From Flectonema sp. DT1601 (taxonomy: Eukaryota > Euglenozoa > Diplonemea > Diplonemida > Diplonemidae), in the NCBI GenBank assembly GCA_964019425.1, contig OZ025825.1, forward strand, positions 807,433 through 871,432: DNA of 64,000 nucleotides, read 5' to 3'. Positions 25,730 to 64,000 of the stretch are shown here, piece after piece; the stretch's first letter is position 1, and every line of letters starts with the position of its first letter. The position numbers and the translations under genes were made by a program. A model generated the notes under the pieces. The model worked only from the letters and a program-made list of their open reading frames with translations. It ran no database searches and was not told the origin of the DNA.

Positions 25730-26914
25730 ATGTCTCACCGTAAGTTCGAAGTACCACGTCACGGTCATTTGGGTTACCTCCCACGTAAGAGATGTCGTCA
25801 CATCAGAGGACGTGTCAGATCATTCCCAATTGACGACGCTGCTCAGGAGCCACACTTGACCGCGTTCATGGGATACAAGGCGGGTATGACCCACATTGTC
25901 CGTGAGCTTGACAGAGCTGGATCCAAGATGCACAAGAAGGAGGTCTGCGAGCCAGTCACCATCCTTGACGTCCCAGAGATGGTTGTTGTTGGTATCGTCG
26001 GATACAAGCCAACTGCCCGTGGTCTCCGTGCCGTCACCACCGTGTGGGCCCAGAAGCTTGGAGAGGCGATGCTCCGTCGTTACTACAAAAGCTGGTTCTC
26101 ATCGAAGCAGAAGGCTTTCACCAAGTACGTTGCTGACTACGAGAAGAACGCTGCCAGCAGAGAAACCACCTTCGGACGCATGGCCAAGCACGCGACCGTT
26201 CTCCGTGTGTTGGCACACACCAGCCCAAGCGCCTTGAAATTGGGAAGCAAGAAGGCTCAGGTCTGTGAGATTCAGATCAACGGAGGAGACATGGCGCAGA
26301 AGATCAAGTACGCCCAGTCCCTTTTGGAGAAGAAGGTGACCGTTGACCAGGTTTTCACTGAGTCCGAGAGATGTGATGTTATCGGAGTCAGCAAGGGTCA
26401 CGGTATGGAGGGTGTGACCCACAGATGGGGAGTCAGCAGACTTCCAAGAAAGTCTCACAGAGGTCTTCGTAAGGTTGCCTGTATTGGAGCATGGCATCCT
26501 TCCAGAGTCTCGTACTCTGTTGCCCGTGCTGGTCAGAACGGATTCCATCACCGTACTGAGTTGAACAAGAAGATTTACAAAATCGGAGTTGAGGCTGCCA
26601 AGGCTGAGAACGGTAACGCCACCACCTCAATCGACATCACCGGAAAGGACATCACTCCATTGGGAGGATTCCCTCACTACGGAGTTGTTAACAACCAGTA
26701 CGTCATGTTGAAGGGTTCATGCCCTGGACCAGTGAAGCGTGTCATCACCCTTCGTCGTCCACTTGCCCCACAAACCAGCAGAGCTGCTCAGGAACAAATC
26801 GACTTGAAGTTCATCGACACCTCATCCAAGATGGGACACGGTCACTTCCAGACCCAGACTGAGAGAGCAAAGTTCATGGGACTCCGTAAGAAGGACATCC
26901 AGAAGCAGGCATAA
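25730..26914 (+). CDS. RPL3: 60S ribosomal protein L3 (uL3), copy 1
   Basis: A core protein of the large ribosomal subunit that reaches the peptidyl-transferase centre. The 394-residue product starts [20 protein letters not shown], the hallmark N-terminus of uL3. It contains the conserved '[16 protein letters not shown]' and the histidine-containing '[20 protein letters not shown]' loop. Length is normal for the family (about 390-405). Codons end strongly in C or G, as expected for a highly expressed gene in an AT-rich genome. It is intronless. The encoded protein is identical to copy 2, with only a few synonymous changes in nearly 1.2 kb. Confidence 0.97.
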
Positions 26915-28167
26915 ACACTTAGCTGATGAGGTTGGTGTTGTGGTATGTAATCCGTCACATTTATTTAGATCTAGTCTTGCCCCTCCCAGCCTCCACATTC
27001 GGAAGAAGGCTATGACCAAAGTTAGCGGGACCAACCACTTGCTCTGGGGTACCTCGGTAGCGTTCAGCAGTATTGTGATCCGACTCGTGGATCTCGCTTC
27101 CATCAAATATGTAATCCGTTACATCCACAGCCGCGTTACCAATCCAAGGGGAATGGTCCTCACATAAATCCTTCGACGTACTAGCTAACAGGCCAGAACC
27201 GAGAAAAAACCCACATACTGATGCGTTTGCCATGGCTTGCAAGTCTATACTATATATATATAATAATGTACTCCATTGTGTAGTATATTATGGTTGCTAT
27301 CTTAGCTATTCTATAACGGAGCTTTATATTTTGTAATTTTTTTTAATTCCAAGATTTAACCTTCATTACTTACTTTAGTATTATAAAGGTTTATTACTGT
27401 TTCTATTGTGAAACTTATCACCCTTTTGGGTATGCCCATTCTCAACCAGGTATTTGGTAATCACGTTAATCTCTTATATAATTCTCTCTGAGTTGGGTGA
27501 TTCACGGTTTAAACTCGTTAGACCTTACGATACGGTCGTTCTTTTTTTTTTTTTTTTTGCATTTAACAAAGTATTGTAGGAACGAAAAATAATGTTGGGC
27601 AGCACACGTAAACCTCCTTTAGTTTTATCAGTTTAAGTCGGTTCACGGGGGGTTTCGTGACACAAACAAAAACATCACAACAAAGTGTTCTTTTGACTAA
27701 TAATAGTTTAAGATAAAAGTCAATTTTTTTTTTTTTTTTTTTTTAAAATCTATCTTAGATGATAAAGTGAACAACAAGTTCTGAAAACAAAACAAAACCA
27801 AAACAGTACCTCATTGTGAAGTGCACAAGTAGTCCGCTGTAAACAATGGCACATAAAGCCGCAGCGGGGGGGGTGGTAAGCTCTTATGAAAAGAAAACAT
27901 TAAAAAAAAAAACATTCAAAAAAAATAAAAAGAGTCTTTGATATCAGATAATGTAAAGCGTCACCCAACAGTTATTTATTATTTCCTTCTTCAGGTGAAC
28001 TGATGACTGATATCAGTTGTCAGGTTGTGTTGTTCAGGTGGCTCTCATTACGGATCTGTTATTGTTGTCGCTTTGTAATGATGTCACGTGGTAAGATGCG
28101 TCCACTTTGTTACTCTCTGTTTTCTTGTTGTATGCTCATTCTCTTCCCCAGAGCTTCTCACCACAAA
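26915..28167. other. Intergenic between the L3 copies
   Basis: The first 34 bases are still identical to copy 2, then sequence diverges completely. A minus-strand open frame (27233 to 26961) encodes 90 residues of non-repetitive protein-like sequence ('ENDIFDGSEIHE'-like acidic stretch) that I do not recognise; it may be a transposon or gene remnant. The rest is AT-rich with T runs. Confidence 0.45.
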
Positions 28168-29352
28168 ATGTCTCACCGTAAGTTCGAAGTACCACGTCAC
28201 GGTCATTTGGGTTACCTCCCACGTAAGAGATGTCGTCACATCAGAGGACGTGTCAGATCATTCCCAATTGACGACGCTGCTCAGGAGCCACACTTGACCG
28301 CGTTCATGGGATACAAGGCGGGTATGACCCACATTGTCCGTGAGCTTGACAGAGCTGGATCCAAGATGCACAAGAAGGAGGTCTGCGAGCCAGTCACCAT
28401 CCTTGACGTCCCAGAGATGGTTGTTGTTGGTATCGTAGGATACAAGCCAACTGCCCGTGGTCTCCGTGCCGTCACCACCGTGTGGGCCCAGAAGCTTGGA
28501 GAGGCGATGCTCCGTCGTTACTACAAAAGCTGGTTCTCATCGAAGCAGAAGGCTTTCACCAAGTACGTTGCTGACTACGAGAAGAACGCTGCCAGCAGAG
28601 AAACCACCTTCGGACGCATGGCCAAGCACGCAACCGTTCTCCGTGTGTTGGCACACACCAGCCCAAGCGCCTTGAAATTGGGAAGCAAGAAGGCTCAGGT
28701 CTGTGAGATTCAGATCAACGGAGGAGACATGGCGCAGAAGATCAAGTACGCCCAGTCCCTTTTGGAGAAGAAGGTGACCGTTGACCAGGTTTTCACTGAG
28801 TCCGAGAGATGTGATGTTATCGGAGTCAGCAAGGGTCACGGTATGGAGGGTGTGACCCACAGATGGGGAGTCAGCAGACTTCCAAGAAAGTCCCACAGAG
28901 GTCTTCGTAAGGTTGCCTGTATTGGAGCATGGCATCCTTCCAGAGTCTCGTACTCTGTTGCCCGTGCTGGTCAGAACGGATTCCATCACCGTACTGAGTT
29001 GAACAAGAAGATTTACAAAATCGGAGTTGAGGCTGCCAAGGCTGAGAACGGTAACGCCACCACCTCGATCGACATCACCGGAAAGGACATCACTCCATTG
29101 GGAGGATTCCCTCACTACGGAGTTGTTAACAACCAGTACGTCATGTTGAAGGGTTCATGCCCTGGACCAGTGAAGCGTGTCATCACCCTTCGTCGTCCAC
29201 TTGCCCCACAAACCAGCAGAGCTGCTCAGGAACAAATCGACTTGAAGTTCATCGACACCTCATCCAAGATGGGACACGGTCACTTCCAGACCCAGACTGA
29301 GAGAGCAAAGTTCATGGGACTCCGTAAGAAGGACATCCAGAAGCAGGCATAA
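28168..29352 (+). CDS. RPL3: 60S ribosomal protein L3 (uL3), copy 2
   Basis: The same 394-residue protein as copy 1, with all uL3 signatures. The two genes match from the CAG at 28149 through 34 bases after the stop, with about four synonymous differences, then diverge. Identity therefore starts at the presumed splice acceptor. I start it at the ATG shared with copy 1; an upstream in-frame extension is unsupported because it diverges from copy 1. Recent duplication or gene conversion is implied. Confidence 0.97.
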
Positions 29353-45320: not shown

Positions 45321-46370
45321 CTTTCGATAAACTGTTGAAGAATTGCCTGATCTGGTAGGCCAGTAAGACATCAAGCAAGCCAGTGTGACCCCACCGAGGT
45401 ATGAGGTGCGGTATTAAGAAACATGAACTCATGTTCACAACTACAGACTTCGGGAGGGCAAGCCAGTCTAGAGGACAACCGCGGAACCTAATGGGCTCCC
45501 TGTTACACGTGAACGTAAGAGATCACTTTCTGTGAGCAGCGTGTTCGCTGAAGCATTGGGTGTAGGAAAGACTTAACTTCTGTAACAGTTGGCAATTCAA
45601 GTTTTGGGTTCTTTACAGGTGGCACAATATCATCAAGCTGTTTCTTCTCCCCGTTGGTGCTTTTGCAGATCTGGGCATGATCTTCACCACGGCCCTCTGC
45701 TTTCAGGTTTTTATCCTGATTTCCTTCTTCTCAAAGGGAGAAGAATCTTGACTTCCTTATTTATTTTTTTTGTTGCGACTTTTTTTGTTTTCTTCCTGTT
45801 ATCCTTTTTTAATACTAAGTTAAAGATAAGACAAACCAGAACCGATAGAAAATAAAACTGATGGATAACTGTTCAGGGGGGAGTACATTCGCAAGGCTGA
45901 AACTTAAAGGAATCGACGGAATGACACCACCAGGCGTGGAGTATGCGGCTTAATTTGACTCAACACAGGGAATTTACTAGGTCAGGACAATGAAAGGATT
46001 GACAGATTGAGTCGATCCATTGTGTGGTTAAATTAAACGAGACAAATGAAGTAACAGACCAGAACAGATAGAGAAGAAGAAAGAAAAAATCATGAGTGAC
46101 AAACGATCAGTCTGATCACGATTTTTTAAAAGTTGGGGTCCGCTGAGTTGAATTACCAGGTGAGATTTGGAGTTAGCTTTTGGCTAAGGCCCTCCCTGAA
46201 GAGCAAGAACAAAAAAACTACTCACACCTGAAGAAAACATACACAAAGAACACTATCCTTTGACCTGAAGACGTCGGTGAACAAGGTGGAGCTGGATTTG
46301 ATAAAGGACAAAGGACAATAGCCGACATGTTCTTTCCTTTCAAGGCGCTGCCTCTTATTCCAAAAAAAAT
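45321..46370. other. Intergenic, no supported gene
   Basis: Mixed-composition DNA, possibly more transposon debris. Nothing specific is recognised. Confidence 0.4.
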
Positions 46371-46442
46371 AGCAGAGGTAGGTTTCGATCCTACGACCTG
46401 TGGGTTATGAGCCCACCGCGCTGACCACTGCGCCACTCTGCT
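46371..46442 (-). tRNA. Initiator tRNA-Met (CAT)
   Basis: The 72-nt minus-strand sequence folds as a full cloverleaf: acceptor AGCAGAG/CTCTGCT, anticodon stem GTGGG/CCCAC with loop CTCATAA, T stem GTAGG/CCTAC. Initiator identity is shown by the A1:T72 first pair and the ATCGAAA T-loop (A54 instead of T54), both typical of eukaryotic initiators. No intron and no encoded CCA. A T-rich run follows the 3' end as a Pol III terminator. It is the only clear host gene on the minus strand. Confidence 0.95.
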
Positions 46443-46951: not shown

Positions 46952-49900
46952 TTACTTCCAAAGTCTAAGGTTAGATGTTTGTTCCATCCACCTTATGATC
47001 AACGCGAGTGATGGAAGCCACGCCAAAGTGAAGAGAGCTTCAAGGTTAGGAATTTCGTTGGCAATAATAAGTTCTCGATCGCGATCCCACTTGCCGGTCA
47101 GTGTTGAGAAGCCCAGGATTTTGAACCTGGCAGAGTCGAGTTTGGGAGATTGACATCCCTGCAGCAGGTGAACCTGTGAGGACGGTTCGCCACAAAATGG
47201 GCAGTCGATCGTCTTGCGCCAGTTCTGAATTAGCGGGTGACATCCTGTCCGGAAGTTCGCTATCCTTATCTCGTCGGCTCTTTCCATCCCAGGAGGGTAT
47301 TTAACGGAACGGCCTCTGATGAGGTGTTTGTAGCAGGTGTAACCACTCACGTTAAGCAGATCCTTTTTGATGCAGCGCTTCACATGTGATGATCGCGAGA
47401 AGTACGTGCCTTTGACTAGCACAGGTCGGATGTTCTTGTTGTGCGCTGCTTCCTTTGCAAGCGCGTCAACTTCATCGTGAAACTCGATTCCAATGTGCGA
47501 GGGGATGAATTGCAAATGCACTTTCATCTCGCACATGCGCAGGTATTCCAGTATCTTGAGGGACTCGGTATTCCTCTGTCTGCACCTTCCACCCAGCAGT
47601 TCATCCAGAAGGGATTTTGAGTCCGTGAATATCCTCACAGATTTCATTGAACGATCTTTGCTAAACACTGTTCTCAGATGTCTAGCCGCGTTCTTCAGAG
47701 CATGTTGTTCAGCCCTGTAGCTGCAGTCAGCTTGATAAAGCCTAGACGCGTAAGCAGATCGAAGGCCGCTACGTGACTTGGCAATATGAGCCGCACCGGC
47801 CGCGCCGGAAGCAGAGTAGGAGCCATCGCAGTTGATTACCATGTCGACAGGAGGCAACGTTCCAATGTACGACATGAACTTTTCTTTGTCCACCGCAGGG
47901 TTCGCGGACTTCGGAAATCCGCAGCTGTTGCTAATCCTAAGGTTCGTCGGAGATACCCAGGGTTCCATCGAGTCAGGCTGCACAAGGCACTGGCTTTCAC
48001 GCTGACTATCAGTGCCAGGGATTAGGCCAGCCCAGTAGCTTTGTGTTGAGGCGAGTCTGTTTGTATTAGGTATCCAAGTCATGGCTTTATACCGGTAGTA
48101 CGCAATTTTTGTCTGCTTTTCAATCTGACGTTTAAAAGGATACATGTCAGACTCCCACAACAGTAACTCTCTTGGCGTACACTTGCTGCATCCAGTAACC
48201 AGTCTGGCGACCTTCCTCAGTTCGAAGTCGATGCTGTCAACGCTGCTGCTTATCAGCCAACCAAAACTGTCAAGCGCATACGAGATTCTCGCGGTTACAT
48301 AAAGGTTCTTAACCATGTTAAGAGTCTTGTAGTCCAGTTCGTACGGCTGGAGGCACTGCAGAAGTGATATCCCCCTCTTTAATTCTTCGTGAATCTTGCC
48401 TACTTGTTTGTGGAAGGTGAGCCTGTCGTCGATGTGAACCCCGAGGTATTTTACTGAGTCGACTATCGGTAACAGAAAGGCAGTTTTGAATATTGTTCTC
48501 ACAACCATAATGCTGTCCTCACGAACGACGTATTGCAGCATCAAGTTGTCGAGTTCTTCTTGTGTCTTGATTGGGATTCCTCCAATTTCAAGAATAGTTT
48601 CGCCACTTTGAAGCATGGGTCTGGGTGATTTGAGATTGATATGCTTCTCGATGTCACCATAGTCAAGTTTAAGCATGCGTTCCTCAACAGATCTAGAGAA
48701 AAGCAGTTCGCGATTACACGTATCGTTTAGTACTATGCCCTTCGAGCGAACATTCATCTTAAGCGCACAGGTTTTGGAGACTGATAAGGCCATGTCGTTT
48801 TCAAAACACCATTGATCCACTTTGTCGAGTACTAACTGAGCATTCGAAAGAGCTTCTTCCATGTTTGATCCTGACACCACACATGCTGTGTCATCCGCAT
48901 ACAGAGCAGACGTCGTTGTTTCCTTCTCTAGTTCCAAAATCTTGCAGAGGTCATCAACGTAGATAAGATAGAGAAGAGGACCCAGGATCGATCCCTGGGG
49001 AACCCCCTTAGCCAGAGTACGGAATTCGCTAAAATACCCATTCGCTTCAACTCTAACCTTCCTGTTTGTAAGAAAGTCTGTGATCCATCTGATAATAACA
49101 TTCGGAACACCCATCTTTACTAATTTTAATAAAAGTATCTTATGGTTGATCCTGTCAAACGCAGCAGTAAAGTCGAATGACAAGAACACTGATCTCTTTT
49201 CTTCCATGTGGCTCCTTACGATAGCATCTACTAGAACGGTGATCTGCTCGCAGGTATTTCTCCCCTTTCTGAATCCAGCCTGTAGTGGGCTGAGCGACGA
49301 ATGTTTTGTGAGCCAGTGCATGAGTCGGTCATACACGAGCCTCTCCGCAAGTTTCCCAACAACCGAGGTGAGCGTTATTGGTCTGAAACTCTTTAGTTCA
49401 TTACGAGGTTTCCCTGCCTTGAACATGGGCTTGATTAGTCCCTGTTTCCATTGGTACGGTACTTTTGAAGTCTTCCAGGAAGTGTTAATAATTTTCAAGA
49501 GGTATTCCACTGTTGCCGGAGTGAAGTTTTTGATCATCTCATTGTGAACTCCATCAGGTCCTGCAGCCTTGCGGGTCTTCAGGTTCTTAATCGCAGCTTT
49601 AATTTCAGCCATTGTGAAATCACAGCAAATATCTATTTCATTATCACCTTCTGAGAGTGCGGGGGCCTCTAGCGATAATATTTCCGATTTCGAGACAAAC
49701 AGGTCCAAGAATGCTGATGGGAGATCGCAGTCAGAGATGTTGTTGACACTGATATCTTTACCAGCATCTTGCTGCAGTTCTTTGATCTTCTTAAACGCAA
49801 AGGCAAAGTTGTTACCCTTGTCAAGTTGATCACGTAGGTGGACACCCTTCGATTTGGTAGAATCAGGGGTTGACGTCTTCCACTTTCGTCTCCGTTTCCC

Positions 49901-50161
49901 TTTGAAAAGGAGACGTCGACGAATGAATTTAGCCGCCACTTCATGCAGTATGTTGTTAAAGAGCTTGGCATTCGCAGTTGCATCATCGGAGAGTCTTGAT
50001 TTTCTAATTCTCTTTTCGAGCATGGTCCCAAAGCAGTTCCAGTCCGTAGACTTGAAGTCCCATACAACGCGTTTCTTCGAACCTATCGTGGCCCGTGCAA
50101 GTTGGCACATGGGATCCAGTACGGTGTAGAGACACACTTTCTGTACTTTATTGACATACAC
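46952..50161 (-). mobile_element. 5'-truncated non-LTR retrotransposon, RT and RNase H (ingi/I-like)
   Basis: A continuous 1,069-codon frame lacks a proper start and an endonuclease domain, so its 5' part is missing. Near residue 110 onward it has the linker before the RT, then RT motifs 'RKAAGPDGV', 'FRPITLTSV', 'FDFTAAFDRINH' and 'ALYADDTACV' (YADD at about residue 421). A 90-residue insertion follows, then 'VKYLGVHIDDRL'. An RNase H domain has 'CDGSYS' (about 777), 'YRAEQHAL', 'IFTDSKSLLD' and 'DALAKEA', and a C-terminal zinc finger (CPFCGEPSSQVHLLQGC) ends it. The RT-RNase H-finger order fits ingi/I-type elements. The frame is intact to the stop. Confidence 0.9.
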
Positions 50162-51258: not shown

Positions 51259-52738
51259 CATGCGGAAAACAACCCAGCAGAACATCAGTTCTCACTCCCT
51301 CCAAAAGTCCCGAACCTAGAACCTAATATTGAAAGAACTTATGCTGACTTTAAGATAATTTCAGTAAATACAAGATCAATGAACACATCAATTGAACTCT
51401 TACGTCTTCTCGTATTTAACTATGAACCAGATGTGCTATTGATCCAAGAGACATTTTTAACGAAGGGAAAGAAAACACCTGAAATTAATGAATATACGCC
51501 ATATAGGAAAGATAGAACTCTACCAAGGCAAGTTGGGAAACCTGTTAGAGGTGGTGGTCTATTGACATATGTTCATAACAAACATAAATTCAGTGAGATT
51601 GCGATCACACAAAGTGAATGCGACTCACTAGAAATATCAGCTGTGGAAATACATTGTGAAGAACCTTTGATTATCTATAATATTTACCGTCCACCATTAC
51701 AAGTTATAAATGATACAAGGAGCCCAAATTACAATCTGGATTGCATTGATCTGAAAGGAAATATGAAAAACAACATTGTCATAATGGGTGACTTTAATGC
51801 ACATAATCACATGTGGGAAGATAAACCAATTGACGATATTAATGGTGATATCATAACAGAATGGATAAGTGAAAACAATCTTGTGTGTTGGAATGAGCCA
51901 TCAATCCCAACAAGGTTAGAGTCAATGACATCTCCAGACCTGACTCTGACAAACACTAATATGAAAATAGAATCTTGGTCTACCCTTGGAACAGTAAACT
52001 CTGACCACTCACCAATGATGATTGTTATACACAACTCATGTAAAAATGTTGACTATCAAAAAGTTAGAAAAAGTGGCTTCAACTGGGCTAAAGCTGATTG
52101 GACTAACTTCAGTGATGACCTCGAAGTGGCCTCAGAAAGAATACAAAATATTAAAATAAACGAAAGTAAAGCAAAAATATTTAAAAATGAAATATTAAAA
52201 GCAAAAAGCAAACACGTTCCGAGAATCTATGTGCGAAAACAAAGAGCAAGGAAATGGTGGAATTCTGAACTGATGGAGCAACTCCGTCATTTTGAGGAGA
52301 AACAAAAGGAAATAACTGATGACAGTGATTTAAATGACGAGAATATGTTGCTCTTAAAGAAACTTAATGAACAAATATGTGATAAAGTAAAAGAGTGTAG
52401 AGAAAGAAACATAGAAAAAAAAATCAAAGAATGTGTCACGGAAGATGGATCTCCGGACGAAGGTGGCATCCTAAAGTATATGGATGATGTAAGGAAACTT
52501 GACGGACGGTGTGAAAGAGTAGAGATACCTTTCATACATGATACAAATATGAACAAAATTCTCGACGACAAAGAAAAGGCAGATTTCTTCACTGATTTCT
52601 TCTCAAACATTGTTGGCAAAGATGTACAAACAAAATATAGACAAAACTTCAACATTAACATAAGAGATGACATAGTTCCGTTCACTCCTTCTGAGGTGAT
52701 GACACAATTGGGAAGACTACATACCCGCAAACCCGCAA
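51259..52738 (+). CDS. Non-LTR retrotransposon ORF2, APE-type endonuclease, truncated before the RT
   Basis: The frame follows the ORF1 TGA without a shift. The endonuclease is complete: 'IISVNTRS' (catalytic Asn), 'LLIQETFL', 'GGGLLTYV', 'YNIYRPP', 'IVIMGDFNAHNHMW', 'DLTLTN' and 'NSDHSPMM'. The pre-RT linker continues to 'FTPSEVMTQLGRLHTRK', homologous to the first RT motif, and is then replaced by satellite DNA. The first in-frame ATG (51379) lies after the catalytic Asn, so an intact enzyme would need stop readthrough or another start. The RT is absent. Confidence 0.85.
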
Positions 52739-52958
52739 ACCCGCAAACCCGCAAACCCGCAAACCCGCAAACCCGCAAACCCGCAAACCCGCAAACCCGC
52801 AAACCCGCAAACCCGCAAACCCGCAAACCCGCAAACCCGCAAACCCGCAAACCCGCAAACCCGCAAACCCGCAAACCCGCAAACCCGCAAACCCGCAAAC
52901 CCGCAAACCCGCAAACCCGCAAACCCGCAAACCCGCAAACCCGCAAACCCGCAAACCC
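52733..52958. repeat. CCCGCAAA satellite, left block, about 28 units
   Basis: A perfect 8-bp tandem array between the truncated retrotransposon and the YR retrotransposon. Because 8 is not a multiple of 3, every + frame reads the same TRKPANPQ peptide and no frame has a stop. Confidence 0.98.
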
Positions 52959-53361
52959 TTACCACTTGGGAACCTTGCAAATGGCAGTGTTTAATTTATC
53001 TAATATCATTTTCTCTTGTTTTCATTTCATTATTTATTGCTAGTGTCAAAAGAAGTTTGAGTTCTCAACTTCAATTGTTTTTTCTGTTTTCCGAAGGTCC
53101 GCTCATTGACAATAAGTTTGCTGCACCGACTTGGTTGCAGAAGCTGATCGTTAGACAAGCAGTCTTTCTTCAAAAGGGGACTTCCCCTAGACTATTTTTG
53201 TGATTCCGAGTGCATTCAAGCTGTTCCTGTTAAAACGGCTTTCTTAGGCTTTTCAAGTCCAGAAAAGAAATCAGATTACTTTTAAGATTTATTTTTCCTA
53301 CAATATCATTCTTTTAGCTTTATCACAGGGTTTTTCAGACTTTTACGTTAAAGTTTTGAAA
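52959..53361 (+). repeat. Split direct repeat A1
   Basis: 403 bp, starting TTACCACTTGGG and ending GTTTTGAAA. Its last base is the A of the gag start codon. Same as A2 at 58506-58908. Likely carries promoter functions; no motif is certain. Confidence 0.95.
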
Positions 53362-55166
53362 TGTCGTACGAGTTCAGCATGCCGACAAGTCTGGACAGCT
53401 TGTGGCAGCAGACCGGGTTACCCTGCCCTAAAAAGGGAAATGTAGACTTAAGAACACGGAAGGAGAGCGCACTTCGTGCGTGTGGGATGACAACCGCCGA
53501 AGGGGCGTTTTGGTGGGTACCGACGAGCCGGGTAGACGACGACTCCGCCGAGAGGTGGATGAACGACGTGCTGTTGGCACGTCTTTTGAAGACGACGAAG
53601 GAGGTAGTGAGCAGGGCATCGGCACGTGGGGTGTTTGTGCTCTTGACGGTGCTGGCCGAGAAAAAGCCAGAGGTTTTTTGTGGATATCTCGTGGAGATGT
53701 CTGACTCGCGCGGTCAGTTGGTGGTGCAAGGGGCAGCGCAGTTTTCCCACCCGCCGCCTAACTCACAACAGGTGGTGTACGATGTCGACGAGGCAGCTGA
53801 CGTAGTCATGACGGACTATGTGAGTACCGAGGAGGCCAGCGAAGTGCTGCGTGGGTTGGCGGCGAGGCACGAGAACACAGAGCAGGGGCTGGGTGGTCTG
53901 TTTCAGGCCACTCAGGAGTACGCGGTCGGGGCGGACCAACGGTTAGCCGGGGTGCAGGCTGCGACGGGGCAGGCACTGGGGCAGGTAGCACAACGCCAAG
54001 GCGCAGTGGAAGCGGAGGTACGGACACAACAAGAAAAGCTGCAAGAACAGCAACAACAACAGAAGGTGCAGGAGCAACGCCAGCAGGTGCAACACCAACA
54101 CCAACAACAGCATGCCAAGGAAGTTGCGGACCTCCGGGCACAGATCGCGTCGCAACGGGCGGAAACAATGCGGAGTGCGAAGGAATTGGCACAGATCCGG
54201 GAAGGAGTTGTAAAGGATCAGTTGGAGCAACAGCAACGACGGGGACAAGAATTGTCTGGTTTGGCGGAGCTTCGAGACTTGATGAAATCCCAGATGCAAC
54301 AACAACAACTGCAAGCGGAAGAGCTTGCGGATTTGAGACGGCAGCAGCAGCAGCATCTGCAACAACAACAAGATCAGCAACAGCAAATGCAACAGCAGCA
54401 ACAGCAACAACATCAGCTACTGCAACAACAGCAGCAACAGCAACAGCAATTACAAACATCGGCGTCGCCGCCTACCGCGGGCAGCGGGATAGGGGAATTG
54501 ACCGACGTACTGTCGAATTTGTCGGTGATGTTGGATGCCAAGAAGAAGAAGGAACCAGCCAATCCGGAATGGAGGGTTGGGATGAAGGTGTTGTGCGGGT
54601 CGGAGAGGGGAGTGATCGTGGCAGTGGAACAGGATCGCGTAGTGGCGGCGGTCCTGGGAGAGGTGAGCGGGCTCCGTCAGTTTGAACTGGGGGGCGAGGG
54701 GTGGGCCCCAGGTCACTGGGAAGAAGACAGGGAGAGATCACAGTTAAATTCAACTCAGGCGGCTGGAAACCAACAGATGTGGGCTGGATTTGCTGCGGGG
54801 GGTCCGCAGGAATGTGAGGCGCTGCAATGGGCAATCGCGAGGAGATTCGCCGGGAACGGGAAGTGGACACGGGAGAACGCGAGGAGGCTGGCGGCGCTCG
54901 CGGTGACGGTGGTGACAAGTGGACCGGAAAAATCTTCCCTCGAGATACTCAAGATGCTTGAGTATTATCGGTACCATGAGAACAGCGAGGCCGCAGCAAG
55001 GAGCTACGAAAGCAAGCTCTTGGAGGAGTCTCTCACACCCGAGACAGCCGAGGCAAGGAAGGCAGCGGAGAAGCACACAAACCGGAAGCCGTTCGTGGGA
55101 GGCAAGGTGGTGGCTGCGTCGGCGCCGAAGCCAAGTGCAAAAAACGGCCGAGGCCGGGGCTACTGA
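53361..55166 (+). CDS. YR retrotransposon ORF1, gag-like Gln-rich protein
   Basis: The 601-residue protein has a globular N-terminal third and a long Gln-rich coiled-coil region (about residues 180-375, with CAR-type repeats in the DNA). A C-terminal domain follows that begins near 'WRVGMKVLCGSERGVIV' and ends in a basic Arg/Gly tail. No zinc knuckle. It is the first ORF of the element, so a nucleocapsid-like role is inferred from position. Its start codon overlaps the end of A1. Confidence 0.75.
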   Translation: MSYEFSMPTSLDSLWQQTGLPCPKKGNVDLRTRKESALRACGMTTAEGAFWWVPTSRVDDDSAERWMNDVLLARLLKTTKEVVSRASARGVFVLLTVLAEKKPEVFCGYLVEMSDSRGQLVVQGAAQFSHPPPNSQQVVYDVDEAADVVMTDYVSTEEASEVLRGLAARHENTEQGLGGLFQATQEYAVGADQRLAGVQAATGQALGQVAQRQGAVEAEVRTQQEKLQEQQQQQKVQEQRQQVQHQHQQQHAKEVADLRAQIASQRAETMRSAKELAQIREGVVKDQLEQQQRRGQELSGLAELRDLMKSQMQQQQLQAEELADLRRQQQQHLQQQQDQQQQMQQQQQQQHQLLQQQQQQQQQLQTSASPPTAGSGIGELTDVLSNLSVMLDAKKKKEPANPEWRVGMKVLCGSERGVIVAVEQDRVVAAVLGEVSGLRQFELGGEGWAPGHWEEDRERSQLNSTQAAGNQQMWAGFAAGGPQECEALQWAIARRFAGNGKWTRENARRLAALAVTVVTSGPEKSSLEILKMLEYYRYHENSEAAARSYESKLLEESLTPETAEARKAAEKHTNRKPFVGGKVVAASAPKPSAKNGRGRGY

Positions 55167-55181
55167 CAGTCAGCTCTGGCA

Positions 55182-56627
55182 ATGCCCGATCAGGTTGGAG
55201 GGGTCCCAGCTCAGGGGGGAAACATGCCCGGCCAGGAGGCCGGAGGGGTCGTTCCTCTTGGGGTAGTGGATATTCCCAGCCAGGTTGGAGGGTTGGTGGT
55301 CACGGACCGGGTTGGGAGGGACAACGAGCCTCGAAACAACCACGGGACGGGAGGCCGTTCAGTTCCGGGGACGGGGCTGGAAAGGCTGGTCAAAACAAAC
55401 TTGCCCAAACGGATGGGGGTTGCCGCGCTTCGGGGAGTGGATATGCCTGGCCGAAGGGTCAGAGGGGTCGCACTGCCTACGGAAGTGGAGGGATCGCTCG
55501 ATATCGGGGTCGGAAGGAAAAGCCAAAAAGGTGGGGGTATTCCGGTTCAGGGAACTGGATCCCGAAGTCTGACCGAGGCGGGCTTAGCAGGAGATGCTGG
55601 GCCGCCAAGGAATCTGCAAAGACAACGACGGATCTTGGAGGAGGTGAGGGAAGGACATCTAGCTGGCGTGGGTGCGAGGATGCCTTCGGTGTTCGGACAA
55701 GTGGTTCTGGAGCATGTGGCAGGGGCCGGGGTGCGGCCGCTGGCACAGGAAGGGACGGTCGACCTCGACGAAGCGATGGAGCGGCTGGGCGACGTGGTTT
55801 CGAACATGTGGGCTGCCGAAACGTCACAGAAAAGACGCAACCTGTGGGGAAGGCTGCAGGGCTGGGCAACGTCGCAGCGGATAGCAGTTACGGCGGAAGC
55901 GGCGGCGTTGTTTGTTCTGGCAACCGGAGTCACACCGCAGGGCCAATTAAACTACGCAAAAGCGTTGTCCGGCGTGTTTCGACACTTGGGGCTGGAGCGG
56001 CAACCTCTTCTCAGCTTGGCGGCAGCGCTCCGGTCGCAAGGCGCGGCCGTTCCGGTCAAACAAGCTCGACCGATTGGGAAGGAGAGACTGCTGGGGTGGG
56101 CGAACAAGCAAACACCGGATCTGAGGTTGGCGGCTCTCGTATGTTGGAAGACTGCATCGAGGTGGGGGGAGGTACAGAAGCTGACGTCCCCTCAGTTCAT
56201 TTGGTTGGAAAAGGACGAAGTGATCATCGATTGGGGGATGACACCGAAGCATCGCCGGGCAGACCCGTATGTCGCGTCGAGATGGGTGGTGATCCAGGGC
56301 GATCTGGTGGAGGTGATAGCTCATTTGGTGAAGGAGCTGTCTCCGTTCGAGCAGCTAACGGCGGTGACGTCGGAACGGCTGGTGGATTTGTGGCGGAAAG
56401 ACCCGGACATGTGCCTCTTCACCGCACATTCTGTGAAGAGAGGGGCAGCTGGCGTCCTGATGCAAGCACTGGAGGAAGGAAAGTTGACTTCTCCGTCCCT
56501 GGTATCACGTCTTCTCAAACACACAGAAGGCGGAGAGGGAGTGTCTGCTACGACCCTCCGATACGCATCCAATCCGGTGAGTACTGCCAGGGCTATGGGG
56601 ACTTGGCGGGCGACAAAGCTGCTGTGA
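55182..56627 (+). CDS. YR retrotransposon ORF2, tyrosine recombinase
   Basis: It would cut and join DNA to insert a circular intermediate. The 481-residue protein has a Gly-rich low-complexity N-terminus (to about 160), a helical core-binding region and a catalytic domain. Candidate catalytic residues are R327 (TASRWGEV), H416 and R420 (HSVKRGAA) and the nucleophile Y461 (LRYASNP). At the usual HxxR position the fourth residue is Lys419, with Arg420 next to it. It starts 15 bases after the gag stop and overlaps the following frame. Confidence 0.85.
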   Translation: MPDQVGGVPAQGGNMPGQEAGGVVPLGVVDIPSQVGGLVVTDRVGRDNEPRNNHGTGGRSVPGTGLERLVKTNLPKRMGVAALRGVDMPGRRVRGVALPTEVEGSLDIGVGRKSQKGGGIPVQGTGSRSLTEAGLAGDAGPPRNLQRQRRILEEVREGHLAGVGARMPSVFGQVVLEHVAGAGVRPLAQEGTVDLDEAMERLGDVVSNMWAAETSQKRRNLWGRLQGWATSQRIAVTAEAAALFVLATGVTPQGQLNYAKALSGVFRHLGLERQPLLSLAAALRSQGAAVPVKQARPIGKERLLGWANKQTPDLRLAALVCWKTASRWGEVQKLTSPQFIWLEKDEVIIDWGMTPKHRRADPYVASRWVVIQGDLVEVIAHLVKELSPFEQLTAVTSERLVDLWRKDPDMCLFTAHSVKRGAAGVLMQALEEGKLTSPSLVSRLLKHTEGGEGVSATTLRYASNPVSTARAMGTWRATKLL

Positions 56628-56731
56628 GGGTTGGAACGCAACACAGCTTGGTGAGGCGGGGGAAGAGGACACGATTGCCAACGACGCCGGTGGAGAAGGC
56701 CTCGCCGTTACATGTGAGTGGTGTGCCGGTG

Positions 56732-58330
56732 ATGGATGTGGCGGGATTACGCAAACGGCTGAATACCGAATCGCAGAGGCGGTTTGACGAGGTGTGGAAG
56801 CTGACGTTTTCGCCGGAAGTGGGGAAGATAGCAAGGTCGACGGGCCGGACTGTGTTTTCGGATGTGCATGCTGGAGAGCTGGCATCGTTTGGCATAGCCC
56901 GGAAGGCGGTTGGCCCGGGTGTGTCGAGCAACGTACCGTTCACTGTGTTGGAGGAGAAACCCGAGGGCATGCGCCAGAGGTTTATTCTGTGGACGAAGGA
57001 TGCGAACAGCTGGCTGGAGGAGAAGTACACCGCGCAGGTGCCCTTGCACCATATCTCACGTTACCTGGACCAAGTACGGGAGGAATGTGGGACTACACGG
57101 GACTTTCGCACAGGCTTTTATGCGATTGAGATCCCAGAGGAAGCGCGGCGTCTCTTTCGGTTCCAGACGGAAGGGGGAAGCTGGTTTGAGTTGTGTCGGC
57201 TGCCGATGGGGCATGTGTGTGCACCGGAGATCATGCACACGATGGCGGCGGCGGCGGCTGGAGACCCGGGTTACGTAAGACCAGAGTGGCAGGCTCGGGG
57301 TGTGCGGGTTGATGTCTTCATAGACAACATTCGATACACAGGCGGCGCGGGTGAGGTTCTTGCTGCGACGGCGAATCTTGATGCGGCTGCTGAGGAATTC
57401 TGTCTGACGTGGAAGCCGGCAGACAGTAACACGGCGGAGGCGAAGTACACCTTCTTGGGGGTGGATTTCGATCACGAAGGGGCAGAGGTGAAGGTCTCGT
57501 TGAAGATCAAGCGGAGGCTGGAGGCGGTGGACCTTGGCATGGTGACGGCTGGGCAGTTGGAGTCGATGGGAGGGAGGCTGATGCATGCGTCGGCGGTGGC
57601 AGGGGAGACGCCGGGGAGGTATTGGTTTGCTCTGAAGTTCCTTCGACGCCTGGCAAACAACTTGAACGCTGGAAGGAGGTTGGTTGGAGACAGGGTACGG
57701 GTACCTGAGTCTGTGGCGGCTGAGCTGCGCGGTTGGATGGCTGGTGCGACTTCGACGAGGCGGATGCATGCTCCGTTTGATGAGCGGGAGCAGATGTTCT
57801 CGGTGTTCATCGACGCTTCGAAGAAAGGATGGGGAGGAGTCGTTGTCAACGACACGACGGCTGAAGTTGTGGTGATGGGAGACTCCTGGGACACACAAGA
57901 AAGCGAGCTGCATATCAACATCTTGGAGGGACTTGCTTTCCACAACACTGTGAAACAGATGTCGCCGGAGCTGGACGGTCGTACTGTGGCAGTATGGATT
58001 GACAACACTTCTGTGGTGGGTGTTTCGAGGAAGGGAATGTCGATCCGCTCTCAAGATTTGAATGCAGCGGTCATTGGTGCTTTAGTGGAGTTGCAGAGGA
58101 GGTCGATTACATTCTCGATCCGGTATGTGCGATCGCAGCTGAACCCGGCAGACTTGCCTTCGAGGGTAGACCCTACGACAATTAGAACTCGCAAGCACAG
58201 AGAGGAGGTCACACTGGCGGTCAGGGCTTTCTTTACTCGCGATGTGGAGGTGGCGCGTGACGGCGCATGTCCCGCGACCGGGCCTCTCCACGAGGTCCCG
58301 ACCGGGCGGCGCCCCGCTACCCCGTTGTGA
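56732..58330 (+). CDS. YR retrotransposon ORF3, reverse transcriptase and RNase H
   Basis: The frame is open from 55808, overlapping the YR gene, but that part is Gly/Arg-rich and looks like an out-of-frame reading. I place the start at the first ATG after the YR stop. The RT has 'RDFRTGFYAIEI' (first Asp), 'LCRLPMGHVCAPEIM' and a catalytic box 'VDVFIDNIRY', where FIDN replaces the common YxDD. The RNase H has all four acidic residues: 'VFIDASKKGW', 'ELHINILEGLAF', 'VAVWIDNTS' and 'LNPADLPSR'. There is no methylase domain as in DIRS-1. Expression may need reinitiation or frameshifting. Confidence 0.85.
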   Translation: MDVAGLRKRLNTESQRRFDEVWKLTFSPEVGKIARSTGRTVFSDVHAGELASFGIARKAVGPGVSSNVPFTVLEEKPEGMRQRFILWTKDANSWLEEKYTAQVPLHHISRYLDQVREECGTTRDFRTGFYAIEIPEEARRLFRFQTEGGSWFELCRLPMGHVCAPEIMHTMAAAAAGDPGYVRPEWQARGVRVDVFIDNIRYTGGAGEVLAATANLDAAAEEFCLTWKPADSNTAEAKYTFLGVDFDHEGAEVKVSLKIKRRLEAVDLGMVTAGQLESMGGRLMHASAVAGETPGRYWFALKFLRRLANNLNAGRRLVGDRVRVPESVAAELRGWMAGATSTRRMHAPFDEREQMFSVFIDASKKGWGGVVVNDTTAEVVVMGDSWDTQESELHINILEGLAFHNTVKQMSPELDGRTVAVWIDNTSVVGVSRKGMSIRSQDLNAAVIGALVELQRRSITFSIRYVRSQLNPADLPSRVDPTTIRTRKHREEVTLAVRAFFTRDVEVARDGACPATGPLHEVPTGRRPATPL

Positions 58331-58505
58331 ATGTATGGAATTCTTTGTCTGTTAGTACTTGTGGCGTAACTCCTTTTCCTCTCTCAGTTCGGATACAATT
58401 ATGATGGTGCATTATTTATTCTTGCCTTATAAATTCTTAACTTCGTTTCTCTTTATTTCCCTTTCCAAAAGTACAATTAACAACTTAAATGCCGCACGGT
58501 TCCCC
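58257..58505 (+). repeat. Split direct repeat B1
   Basis: 249 bp, starting GTGACGGCGCATG inside the end of the RT/RNase H gene and ending GCACGGTTCCCC, directly joined to A2. One mismatch to B2. Confidence 0.95.
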
Positions 58506-58908
58506 TTACCACTTGGGAACCTTGCAAATGGCAGTGTTTAATTTATCTAATATCATTTTCTCTTGTTTTCATTTCATTATTTATTGCTAGTGTCAAAAGA
58601 AGTTTGAGTTCTCAACTTCAATTGTTTTTTCTGTTTTCCGAAGGTCCGCTCATTGACAATAAGTTTGCTGCACCGACTTGGTTGCAGAAGCTGATCGTTA
58701 GACAAGCAGTCTTTCTTCAAAAGGGGACTTCCCCTAGACTATTTTTGTGATTCCGAGTGCATTCAAGCTGTTCCTGTTAAAACGGCTTTCTTAGGCTTTT
58801 CAAGTCCAGAAAAGAAATCAGATTACTTTTAAGATTTATTTTTCCTACAATATCATTCTTTTAGCTTTATCACAGGGTTTTTCAGACTTTTACGTTAAAG
58901 TTTTGAAA
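58506..58908 (+). repeat. Split direct repeat A2
   Basis: Second copy of the 403-bp A repeat, followed by a 19-bp CCCA-rich spacer (58909-58927) before B2. Confidence 0.95.
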
Positions 58909-58927
58909 GCCCACCCACCCACCCCCT

Positions 58928-59176
58928 GTGACGGCGCATGTCCCGCGACCGGGCCTCTCCACGAGGTCCCGACCGGGCGGCGCCCCGCTACCCCGTTGTG
59001 AATGTATGGAATTCTTTGTCTGTTAGTACTTGTGGCGTAACTCCTTTTTCTCTCTCAGTTCGGATACAATTATGATGGTGCATTATTTATTCTTGCCTTA
59101 TAAATTCTTAACTTCGTTTCTCTTTATTTCCCTTTCCAAAAGTACAATTAACAACTTAAATGCCGCACGGTTCCCC
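58928..59176 (+). repeat. Split direct repeat B2
   Basis: Second copy of the 249-bp B repeat. Its terminal CCCC runs directly into the satellite. Confidence 0.95.
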
Positions 59177-62100
59177 GCAAACCCGCAAACCCGCAAACCC
59201 GCAAACCCGCAAACCCGCAAACCCGCAAACCCGCAAACCCGCAAACCCGCAAACCCGCAAACCCGCAAACCCGCAAACCCGCAAACCCGCAAACCCGCAA
59301 ACCCGCAAACCCGCAAACCCGCAAACCCGCAAACCCGCAAACCCGCAAACCCGCAAACCCGCAAACCCGCAAACCCGCAAACCCGCAAACCCGCAAACCC
59401 GCAAACCCGCAAACCCGCAAACCCGCAAACCCGCAAACCCGCAAACCCGCAAACCCGCAAACCCGCAAACCCGCAAACCCGCAAACCCGCAAACCCGCAA
59501 ACCCGCAAACCCGCAAACCCGCAAACCCGCAAACCCGCAAACCCGCAAACCCGCAAACCCGCAAACCCGCAAACCCGCAAACCCGCAAACCCGCAAACCC
59601 GCAAACCCGCAAACCCGCAAACCCGCAAACCCGCAAACCCGCAAACCCGCAAACCCGCAAACCCGCAAACCCGCAAACCCGCAAACCCGCAAACCCGCAA
59701 ACCCGCAAACCCGCAAACCCGCAAACCCGCAAACCCGCAAACCCGCAAACCCGCAAACCCGCAAACCCGCAAACCCGCAAACCCGCAAACCCGCAAACCC
59801 GCAAACCCGCAAACCCGCAAACCCGCAAACCCGCAAACCCGCAAACCCGCAAACCCGCAAACCCGCAAACCCGCAAACCCGCAAACCCGCAAACCCGCAA
59901 ACCCGCAAACCCGCAAACCCGCAAACCCGCAAACCCGCAAACCCGCAAACCCGCAAACCCGCAAACCCGCAAACCCGCAAACCCGCAAACCCGCAAACCC
60001 GCAAACCCGCAAACCCGCAAACCCGCAAACCCGCAAACCCGCAAACCCGCAAACCCGCAAACCCGCAAACCCGCAAACCCGCAAACCCGCAAACCCGCAA
60101 ACCCGCAAACCCGCAAACCCGCAAACCCGCAAACCCGCAAACCCGCAAACCCGCAAACCCGCAAACCCGCAAACCCGCAAACCCGCAAACCCGCAAACCC
60201 GCAAACCCGCAAACCCGCAAACCCGCAAACCCGCAAACCCGCAAACCCGCAAACCCGCAAACCCGCAAACCCGCAAACCCGCAAACCCGCAAACCCGCAA
60301 ACCCGCAAACCCGCAAACCCGCAAACCCGCAAACCCGCAAACCCGCAAACCCGCAAACCCGCAAACCCGCAAACCCGCAAACCCGCAAACCCGCAAACCC
60401 GCAAACCCGCAAACCCGCAAACCCGCAAACCCGCAAACCCGCAAACCCGCAAACCCGCAAACCCGCAAACCCGCAAACCCGCAAACCCGCAAACCCGCAA
60501 ACCCGCAAACCCGCAAACCCGCAAACCCGCAAACCCGCAAACCCGCAAACCCGCAAACCCGCAAACCCGCAAACCCGCAAACCCGCAAACCCGCAAACCC
60601 GCAAACCCGCAAACCCGCAAACCCGCAAACCCGCAAACCCGCAAACCCGCAAACCCGCAAACCCGCAAACCCGCAAACCCGCAAACCCGCAAACCCGCAA
60701 ACCCGCAAACCCGCAAACCCGCAAACCCGCAAACCCGCAAACCCGCAAACCCGCAAACCCGCAAACCCGCAAACCCGCAAACCCGCAAACCCGCAAACCC
60801 GCAAACCCGCAAACCCGCAAACCCGCAAACCCGCAAACCCGCAAACCCGCAAACCCGCAAACCCGCAAACCCGCAAACCCGCAAACCCGCAAACCCGCAA
60901 ACCCGCAAACCCGCAAACCCGCAAACCCGCAAACCCGCAAACCCGCAAACCCGCAAACCCGCAAACCCGCAAACCCGCAAACCCGCAAACCCGCAAACCC
61001 GCAAACCCGCAAACCCGCAAACCCGCAAACCCGCAAACCCGCAAACCCGCAAACCCGCAAACCCGCAAACCCGCAAACCCGCAAACCCGCAAACCCGCAA
61101 ACCCGCAAACCCGCAAACCCGCAAACCCGCAAACCCGCAAACCCGCAAACCCGCAAACCCGCAAACCCGCAAACCCGCAAACCCGCAAACCCGCAAACCC
61201 GCAAACCCGCAAACCCGCAAACCCGCAAACCCGCAAACCCGCAAACCCGCAAACCCGCAAACCCGCAAACCCGCAAACCCGCAAACCCGCAAACCCGCAA
61301 ACCCGCAAACCCGCAAACCCGCAAACCCGCAAACCCGCAAACCCGCAAACCCGCAAACCCGCAAACCCGCAAACCCGCAAACCCGCAAACCCGCAAACCC
61401 GCAAACCCGCAAACCCGCAAACCCGCAAACCCGCAAACCCGCAAACCCGCAAACCCGCAAACCCGCAAACCCGCAAACCCGCAAACCCGCAAACCCGCAA
61501 ACCCGCAAACCCGCAAACCCGCAAACCCGCAAACCCGCAAACCCGCAAACCCGCAAACCCGCAAACCCGCAAACCCGCGCAAACCCGCAAACCCGCAAAC
61601 CCGCAAACCCGCAAACCCGCAAACCCGCAAACCCGCAAACCCGCAAACCCGCAAACCCGCAAACCCGCAAACCCGCAAACCCGCAAACCCGCAAACCCGC
61701 AAACCCGCAAACCCGCAAACCCGCAAACCCGCAAACCCGCAAACCCGCAAACCCGCAAACCCGCAAACCCGCAAACCCGCAAACCCGCAAACCCGCAAAC
61801 CCGCAAACCCGCAAACCCGCAAACCCGCAAACCCGCAAACCCGCAAACCCGCAAACCCGCAAACCCGCAAACCCGCAAACCCGCAAACCCGCAAACCCGC
61901 AAACCCGCAAACCCGCAAACCCGCAAACCCGCAAACCCGCAAACCCGCAAACCCGCAAACCCGCAAACCCGCAAACCCGCAAACCCGCAAACCCGCAAAC
62001 CCGCAAACCCGCAAACCCGCAAACCCGCAAACCCGCAAACCCGCAAACCCGCAAACCCGCAAACCCGCAAACCCGCAAACCCGCAAACCCGCAAACCCGC

Positions 62101-64000
62101 AAACCCGCAAACCCGCAAACCCGCAAACCCGCAAACCCGCAAACCCGCAAACCCGCAAACCCGCAAACCCGCAAACCCGCAAACCCGCAAACCCGCAAAC
62201 CCGCAAACCCGCAAACCCGCAAACCCGCAAACCCGCAAACCCGCAAACCCGCAAACCCGCAAACCCGCAAACCCGCAAACCCGCAAACCCGCAAACCCGC
62301 AAACCCGCAAACCCGCAAACCCGCAAACCCGCAAACCCGCAAACCCGCAAACCCGCAAACCCGCAAACCCGCAAACCCGCAAACCCGCAAACCCGCAAAC
62401 CCGCAAACCCGCAAACCCGCAAACCCGCAAACCCGCAAACCCGCAAACCCGCAAACCCGCAAACCCGCAAACCCGCAAACCCGCAAACCCGCAAACCCGC
62501 AAACCCGCAAACCCGCAAACCCGCAAACCCGCAAACCCGCAAACCCGCAAACCCGCAAACCCGCAAACCCGCAAACCCGCAAACCCGCAAACCCGCAAAC
62601 CCGCAAACCCGCAAACCCGCAAACCCGCAAACCCGCAAACCCGCAAACCCGCAAACCCGCAAACCCGCAAACCCGCAAACCCGCAAACCCGCAAACCCGC
62701 AAACCCGCAAACCCGCAAACCCGCAAACCCGCAAACCCGCAAACCCGCAAACCCGCAAACCCGCAAACCCGCAAACCCGCAAACCCGCAAACCCGCAAAC
62801 CCGCAAACCCGCAAACCCGCAAACCCGCAAACCCGCAAACCCGCAAACCCGCAAACCCGCAAACCCGCAAACCCGCAAACCCGCAAACCCGCAAACCCGC
62901 AAACCCGCAAACCCGCAAACCCGCAAACCCGCAAACCCGCAAACCCGCAAACCCGCAAACCCGCAAACCCGCAAACCCGCAAACCCGCAAACCCGCAAAC
63001 CCGCAAACCCGCAAACCCGCAAACCCGCAAACCCGCAAACCCGCAAACCCGCAAACCCGCAAACCCGCAAACCCGCAAACCCGCAAACCCGCAAACCCGC
63101 AAACCCGCAAACCCGCAAACCCGCAAACCCGCAAACCCGCAAACCCGCAAACCCGCAAACCCGCAAACCCGCAAACCCGCAAACCCGCAAACCCGCAAAC
63201 CCGCAAACCCGCAAACCCGCAAACCCGCAAACCCGCAAACCCGCAAACCCGCAAACCCGCAAACCCGCAAACCCGCAAACCCGCAAACCCGCAAACCCGC
63301 AAACCCGCAAACCCGCAAACCCGCAAACCCGCAAACCCGCAAACCCGCAAACCCGCAAACCCGCAAACCCGCAAACCCGCAAACCCGCAAACCCGCAAAC
63401 CCGCAAACCCGCAAACCCGCAAACCCGCAAACCCGCAAACCCGCAAACCCGCAAACCCGCAAACCCGCAAACCCGCAAACCCGCAAACCCGCAAACCCGC
63501 AAACCCGCAAACCCGCAAACCCGCAAACCCGCAAACCCGCAAACCCGCAAACCCGCAAACCCGCAAACCCGCAAACCCGCAAACCCGCAAACCCGCAAAC
63601 CCGCAAACCCGCAAACCCGCAAACCCGCAAACCCGCAAACCCGCAAACCCGCAAACCCGCAAACCCGCAAACCCGCAAACCCGCAAACCCGCAAACCCGC
63701 AAACCCGCAAACCCGCAAACCCGCAAACCCGCAAACCCGCAAACCCGCAAACCCGCAAACCCGCAAACCCGCAAACCCGCAAACCCGCAAACCCGCAAAC
63801 CCGCAAACCCGCAAACCCGCAAACCCGCAAACCCGCAAACCCGCAAACCCGCAAACCCGCAAACCCGCAAACCCGCAAACCCGCAAACCCGCAAACCCGC
63901 AAACCCGCAAACCCGCAAACCCGCAAACCCGCAAACCCGCAAACCCGCAAACCCGCAAACCCGCAAACCCGCAAACCCGCAAACCCGCAAACCCGCAAAC
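59174..64000. repeat. CCCGCAAA satellite, right block, about 600 units, continuing past the window
   Basis: 4.8 kb of near-perfect 8-bp tandem repeat with a single irregularity, a 10-bp unit (CCCGCGCAAA) at about 61574. The G-rich strand (TTTGCGGG) runs toward the left, opposite to what a telomere at the right end would show. The long open frames here (RVCGFAGL on minus, TRKPANPQ on plus) are a consequence of the 8-bp period and not genes. Confidence 0.98.

Follow-up and report, generated by a model that had tools for sequence, protein, structure and literature searches.

What kind of mobile element lies between two arrays of one short repeat at the very end of a contig, and by what rule was it placed there? 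The question is raised by a stretch of 64,000 nucleotides (nt) from Flectonema sp. DT1601 (contig OZ025825.1, positions 807,433 to 871,432; hereafter the window). Its last base is also the last base of the contig, C46 (871,432 bp), in an assembly of 89.5 Mb and 92 contigs. The distal part of the window carries a complete element encoding a gag-like protein, a putative tyrosine recombinase (YR) and a reverse transcriptase with RNase H (RT/RH), bounded by split direct repeats (A1 at the left, B1-A2-B2 at the right) and embedded in (CCCGCAAA)n arrays. Very probably this is a YR retrotransposon of the VIPER/TATE type, apparently intact and recently inserted, which specialises in the terminal (CCCGCAAA)n arrays of the host genome.

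Anatomy of the element

The components follow each other in the order A1, gag, YR, RT/RH, B1, A2, a 22-nt spacer and B2 (Table 1). A1 and A2 are identical at 403 of 403 nt and B1 and B2 at 248 of 249 nt, a single difference, which rules out chance or misread repeats. The long repeats are direct, so that the DIRS-like arrangement of inverted terminal repeats with an internal complementary region is absent; the only inverted pairs of at least 20 nt found are two of 25 nt (76%). The open frame of RT/RH extends over 55808-58330 and overlaps that of YR. A first-pass annotation, made from the letters of the window, had described an element at 52956-59176 with A repeats of 403 bp, B repeats of 249 bp with one change and a Gln-rich gag of 601 residues, all of which was borne out. 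It made no mention of the telomere-type array, nor of the constant orientation and the targeting by several families.

Table 1. Coordinates of the element, its arrays and the adjoining truncated gene (window positions)
Feature	Position	Strand	Remarks
LINE endonuclease open reading frame (ORF), 5' part	51379..52722	+	Exo_endo_phos_2, 3.7e-17; broken off by array, RT half missing
Proximal (CCCGCAAA)n array	52723..52958	+	29.5 units, 100% matches
A1 left split direct repeat	52956..53358	+	First CCC common to array and A1
gag-like ORF	53361..55166	+	601 amino acids (aa); Gln-rich coiled coil, Arg/Gly C-terminus (GRGRGY)
Putative tyrosine recombinase ORF	55182..56627	+	481 aa; R..K..HSVKRG..KH..RY set in C-terminal half
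RT/RNase H, part under selection	56651..58330	+	Motif C is IDN
B1 split direct repeat	58257..58505	+	
A2 split direct repeat	58503..58905	+	B1-A2 boundary is the candidate circle junction
C-rich spacer A2-B2	58906..58927	+	22 nt
B2 split direct repeat	58928..59176	+	End GGTTC/CCC meets array
Distal (CCCGCAAA)n array	59174..64000	+	About 603 units; reaches end of contig C46; outward strand C-rich

Insertion joints

The uninterrupted array reads AAACCC/GCAAA (a slash marks the position of the joint) and the inner B1-A2 boundary reads GGTTCCCC/TTACC. The window copy meets the array at a left joint AAACCC/TTACC and a right joint GGTTCCCC/GCAAA. A single exchange inside the common CCC reproduces both joints exactly, with nothing duplicated or lost. 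Judged from their letters, both joints fit a conservative recombination at the CCC common to element and array, and the lack of target-site duplication is a VIPER/TATE trait. A 7-nt pair, GGTTCCC and GGGAACC, flanks the joint. The same joints are found unchanged in the copies on contigs C72 and C15, the left joint also on C35, and equivalents occur in the sister-family copy on C12 and in other families.

Searches of the whole assembly extend this observation. The right-joint pattern GGTTC/CCCGCAAACCCGCAAA has 73 exact matches, against 0 for a backwards control. Leaving out eight of the 73, 65 right joints, on contigs of known length, were placed relative to contig ends: 62 lie at most 60 kb from an end and point outward, 2 lie within the same distance and point inward, and 1 is deeper and points outward. 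The left-joint pattern (array, CC, 4-24 letters, GGGAA) gives 138+86 matches, several per site, against 0 for the control; since the pattern itself requires CC and GGGAA, its informative part is the leaders in between. After removal of overlapping matches at the same site, of C41:25228 and C42:430875 (array variants or chance) and of the last match (C47), these leaders show 13 spellings across 68 distinct sites among the matches listed (C1-C46). Seven of them pair by position, as judged by eye, with RT families: those of C46 (the window family), C12, C14, C2, C5, C16 and C45. In six of the seven the GGTTC right end stands at the fitting place. Seven families thus share the left joint. Insertion at one position of a telomeric repeat, a TATE trait, is found here for the terminal array, which may be the telomere itself.

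Copies and families in the genome

The first-pass annotation had proposed counting copies in the genome. A protein search of the host's own genome returned 87 matches, of which 9 short N-terminal pieces were dropped and 78 RT places kept. As these 78 are the scored part of 410 first-look candidates, all copy counts are lower bounds, and the genome holds at least 78 RT places. At least 64 are no farther than 46 kb from a contig end, and every one of these 64 points outward. The other 14 of the 78 scored places are at a depth of more than 170 kb; 2 of these point outward and 12 inward. RT identity to the window copy falls in steps: 99-100, 78-85, 59-67, 51, 46-49 and 42-44%. The two interior families sampled form a clade separate from eight end-near sequences (RT 94/97, YR 86/87), with L140, an outside relative described below, as a long outgroup branch. 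Members of the interior family of C27 (L142, L143) have split direct repeats, and no CCCGCAAA was found in the flanks fetched. The A repeat of this family contains, by eye, a stretch resembling half a tRNA; ARAGORN (L143) and Rfam (L142, L143) detected nothing.

Preservation varies among copies. The C72 copy is 99.6% identical to the window copy over 6223 nt with the same three ORFs open, and the C12 copy also has all three ORFs, so that the other copies are not all defective relics, contrary to the outcome that the first-pass annotation had named as one that would refute it. The C15 copy has lost the start of gag through an internal deletion and its split repeats are reduced; the left copy of C35 is cut at element position ~4052. 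The A1 and B1-A2-B2 repeats are complete in the window, C72, C12 and C35 right-end copies, and within each of these four complete copies checked A1 equals A2 and B1 nearly equals B2. An apparent in-frame TGA in the 51% and 59-60% families was set aside: in the two members read (L109, L110) the open frame and RT/RH end together, and the TGA was therefore taken as the natural stop.

Solo units and capped breaks

When each left joint is paired with the nearest right joint, short units appear besides full lengths: 510-539 bp (6), 652-676 bp (4), 412 bp and 453 bp. Contig C10 carries two of them, both flanked by arrays. One, of ~656 bp, consists of A+B of the 82% (sister) family, at 97-100% identity; the other carries the leader 'AACACTC'.

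Three copies (L061, L062, L063) lose their distal side and continue straight into array. For the two distal cuts whose intact sequence is known, element and array overlap by 3 nt (AAC) in one and by 2 nt (CC) in the other. The truncated LINE ORF next to the proximal array (Table 1) is read as an older chromosome break, likewise capped by array. Across 18 loci and window positions 40001-64000, 12 array starts are neither a YR joint nor the continuation of an array. Four of them, after G or T, begin exactly at CCC and eight follow A; the scan detects whole units, and a partial first unit may hide before these eight. Such starts are consistent with telomerase-like addition to broken 3' ends, without proving it, and end joining with microhomology may also be their source.

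These observations suggest the following cycle. The element would be transcribed and then reverse-transcribed to a double-stranded circle with a single B-A junction, identical to the inner B1-A2 boundary. The YR would exchange strands between the CCC of this junction and the CCC of an array unit, giving the left joint AAACCC/TTACC and its right counterpart without net duplication. As the array is polar, insertions would all be oriented toward the chromosome end. Terminal breaks would remove distal parts, and a telomerase-like healing of the broken end would add new array and so restore the landing site. Recombination between A1 and A2 would leave the solo A-B copies.

Proteins and selection

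The gag matches only SMC-like coiled coils. RT/RH of the window copy matches Pfam RT_RNaseH (4e-06), and at E<=1 both RT_RNaseH and RVT_1 are found in 9 of 10 families; for the RNase H part, which in VIPER-like elements is closer to that of hepadnaviruses than to those of other elements, DNA_pol_viral_C is matched in 2 of 10, with a best E of 0.019. Among structures in PDB, the reverse transcriptases of cauliflower mosaic virus (CaMV) and Ty3 are matched (3.3e-05 and 3.2e-04). The residues that we take to be the motif A Asp, the LPMG motif and the D-E-D-D set of RNase H are invariant in 11 of 11 RT/RH sequences.

The ORF at 55182..56627 is likely a tyrosine recombinase, judging by the order of its motifs, its place within the element and joints that are exact and conservative. 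At E<=1, six of the 10 families match the phrog_1 integrase profile; the best value is 4e-06, and that of the window copy 0.0011. Residues R161, K190, H250, H281 and Y295 (numbered in window:55680-56624) are invariant in 11 of 11 sequences, and box II, HS[VI]KRG, is kept across the same number.

Selection was estimated between the window family and the sister family as the ratio of nonsynonymous to synonymous rates (dN/dS). It is 0.137 for gag (dS 2.1, silent sites near saturation), 0.09 for the C-terminal part of YR (55680-56624) and 0.12 for RT/RH; all three proteins are under purifying selection. The first-pass description of the element as complete and recent agrees with these values (0.09-0.14) and with the C72 and sister-family copies. 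In the RT frame where it overlaps YR, dN/dS is 2.84, which rules out RT being encoded in this long overlap. As the overlap frame is without selection, synthesis of RT/RH probably begins near the YR stop.

Several observations weigh against an intact and array-specific YR retrotransposon. In all 11 sequences, RT motif C has the form [IV]DN in place of the usual DD. The position of the second Arg in the R-K-H-R-H/W-Y set is occupied by Lys253, followed by Arg254, again in 11 of 11, in a register taken from a non-significant alignment to Cre. Pfam Phage_integrase is matched by YR in 1 of 10 families only (E 0.012), no Pfam integrase family is found in the window copy, and YR has no match in PDB. 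Profile comparison gives E 0.14 for Cre and 0.053 for Xer/lambda Int, neither significant, and the latter aligns the wrong part. In a second scan, at E<=0.1, an integrase family is recovered for 1 of 5 proteins. The structure model of YR is of low confidence (mean pLDDT, the model's own confidence score, 44) and was unused as evidence. With Lys at the second-Arg site and DN in motif C, catalysis is unproven. At the joints, 2 of the 64 end-near right ends point inward, and the seventh leader-matched family (the 44% family, C45) has GATTC rather than GGTTC before the array.

Relatives and comparison with known YR retrotransposons

A single relative was found outside the host genome: L140 (CAITIQ010000216.1), a 5.9-kb contig from a Lake Erken metagenome-assembled genome labelled deltaproteobacterium. 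It carries gag-like, YR and RT/RH sequences in the same order, with 40% (4e-62) and 32% identity in YR and RT respectively, and keeps IDN and HSIKRG. Its YR and RT/RH have no match to Pfam YR or RT families, and its sequence contains no long CCCGCAAA array. L140 is probably a mis-binned eukaryote contig. Its existence indicates that the lineage is not private to this genome. The viral contig collection yielded no relative; in the prokaryotic genome contig collection the RT scan yielded none and the YR scan this one. The collections searched being viral and prokaryotic, absence there says little.

VIPER and TATE of kinetoplastids are described with gag-like, YR and RT/RH sequences in this order and split repeats A1 and B1-A2-B2, without target duplication (PMC12278014, PMC6681497). 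The first-pass annotation had likened the ORF order to that of VIPER, rightly, and TATE has the same order according to the same descriptions (PMC12278014). TATE, from Leishmania (Viannia) and other kinetoplastids, is the closest parallel: in L. braziliensis its A and B repeats measure 381 and 294 bp (PMC6681497, PMC12278014), and it inserts exactly inside telomeric repeats and clusters at chromosome ends (PMC6681497, PMC2696322). The account in PMC2696322 places it in the telomeric hexamer (GGG/TTA), in 20-30 copies on at least 12 chromosomes, with a TT duplication, whereas PMC12278014 gives no duplication. Its repeats are said to be hard to describe, as copies lie near contig ends and in tandem (PMC6681497). 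The present element differs in its target, CCC/GCAAA of an 8-nt repeat instead of GGG/TTA, and in its conservative exchange as opposed to the TT duplication given for TATE in PMC2696322. It also differs in having several families on one target, solo A-B copies and at least 64 end-near RT copies, and in its diplonemid host. VIPER and SIRE of trypanosomatids have the same ORF order and repeats, SIRE being the A2-B2 region of VIPER, which parallels the solo A-B copies here (PMC6681497, PMC12278014). Telomere-repeat targeting is not part of the descriptions of VIPER in these two sources. A CH-box zinc finger is present in some gag proteins of VIPER (PMC6681497). For Diplonema papillatum, more than 60 ORFs resembling TATE, MULE and Helitron proteins are mentioned without detail in the genome description (PMC10161547). 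By structure, as compared through published descriptions, the present element would belong with VIPER/TATE. By analogy, it would work like TATE.

Other elements share single features with the one described here. Ngaro has RT/RH before YR, unlike the present element, and we know of no telomere-repeat targeting in Ngaro or PAT-like elements. A specialisation on telomeric repeats is also found among other retroelements, the insect TRAS/SART LINEs and the Penelope-like elements at telomeres. Their reverse transcription is primed on target DNA, whereas insertion here matches YR-mediated recombination. Split direct repeats of the same pattern are described for Ngaro and PAT-like elements (PMC6681497).

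The terminal array and alternative explanations

Contig ends were sampled at 80 of 184 positions (53 left, of which 32 are arrays; 27 right, of which 20 are arrays, the window's included). An end was classed as array when it had 5 or more whole units in its outer 100 nt or at least 32 in its outer 300 nt. The outward strand is CCCGCAAA, C-rich, at 52 of 52 array-bearing ends, and the opposite polarity is seen at 0. Ten of the 27 contigs sampled at both ends bear the array at both (C1, C9, C12, C22, C33, C35, C47, C64, C72 and C84). Among the 28 sampled ends without a clean array, four have, by eye, a noisy array of the same polarity (C4, C14, C45 left, C88 right), two lie apparently inside elements (C58, C80 right) and the rest consist of other sequence. 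The assembly contains a TERT gene at C7:904589-904969 (L115; PF12009, 2.5e-10), with RT motifs and perhaps an intron by eye. Among the papers listed by a literature search, judged by title and start of abstract, none reports this 8-nt unit as a telomere. According to PMC9498494, the G-rich strand belongs at the 3' end, and G-rich repeats inside a contig or at its 5' end indicate an interstitial array or misassembly. None of the 52 array ends follows this rule.

Either the host breaks the G-rich-3' rule, or all sampled ends stop before a different true telomere. The chances are about even that the telomeres of the host are reversed in polarity (telomerase adding (AAACCCGC)n, with a C-rich 3' strand) and that a radiation of YR retrotransposons tracks the array as its landing site. 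Only a little less credible is the view that the array is a subtelomeric satellite to which the element homes, with an ordinary telomere beyond the assembled ends: the C-rich outward strand contradicts the published rule (PMC9498494), 28 of the 80 sampled ends are not clean arrays, and the array also occurs inside subtelomeres, for example at C1:1863409. Contig breaks within interior arrays should nevertheless give both polarities, whereas a single one is seen at all array ends and ten contigs bear it at both of theirs; such breaks were rejected as the main source of the end arrays. (TTAGGG)4, the only motif searched, is not found in the whole assembly, where other distal repeats are possible. 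The 12 places where array begins in unrelated sequence, with no YR joint, also fit addition to broken ends, without proof.

Exchange of sequence among subtelomeres, together with the near-identity of several families at many ends, could suggest that the end copies spread by segmental duplication or recombination among chromosome ends instead of retrotransposition. We consider this most improbable: families whose RTs agree at only 43-83% have the left joint in common, and copies of the window family (F1) differ in what lies proximal to them, which is a LINE fragment at C46 but something else at C15 and C35. In addition, the equality of A1 and A2 and near-equality of B1 and B2 in four complete copies is what reverse transcription would leave, and the ORFs are under purifying selection. 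It is also unlikely, if less so, that the element represents a new order of YR retrotransposons unrelated to VIPER/TATE, with the same layout reached by convergence. The lack of relatives in viral contigs, the single one in genome contigs, and the constancy of IDN in motif C and of HS[VI]KRG in box II across 11 sequences would favour such an origin. The collections searched give this lack little weight, however, the structural traits of VIPER/TATE are present, and both groups occur in Euglenozoa. A YR retrotransposon of the VIPER/TATE kind remains our preferred reading of the element.

Host features and neighbouring sequence

A spliced-leader gene (L046) lies at the right end of C16. The leader 'Euglenozoa 14' is, we presume, that of Diplonema. 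The 39-nt exon of L046 differs from it at 2 nt (PMC3795323). This exon marks the host as a euglenozoan, and it looks like a diplonemid. A fragment of large-subunit (28S) rRNA is present at window 16567-16662 on the minus strand (Rfam RF02543, 6.5e-17) and resembles the scattered 28S pieces described in Diplonema papillatum (PMC10161547). Nearly all the long ORFs between 6.7 and 38 kb lie on the plus strand, an arrangement also known from polycistronic euglenozoan genomes. Two of the window's ORFs (25730-26914 and 28003-29352) apparently carry the same sequence, which we take to be ribosomal protein L3-like. An ORF of 1069 aa on the minus strand (46952-50161) resembles, by eye, a non-LTR (lacking long terminal repeats) reverse transcriptase with RNase H; next to it, Rfam places a tRNA gene at 46370-46442.

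Implications

Among published YR retrotransposons, TATE is the one we found to be tied to telomeric repeats. In the present genome, complete copies, exact joints in several families, solo units and capped breaks make the integration rule of such an element readable and testable. If the polarity of the host telomeres is reversed, a telomerase RNA template of TTTGCGGG type would be expected. Should the array prove to be the true telomere, its C-rich 3' strand would break the rule by which telomeres are recognised, and would bear on the need for G-richness (G-quadruplexes, overhang-binding proteins) in the protection of chromosome ends.

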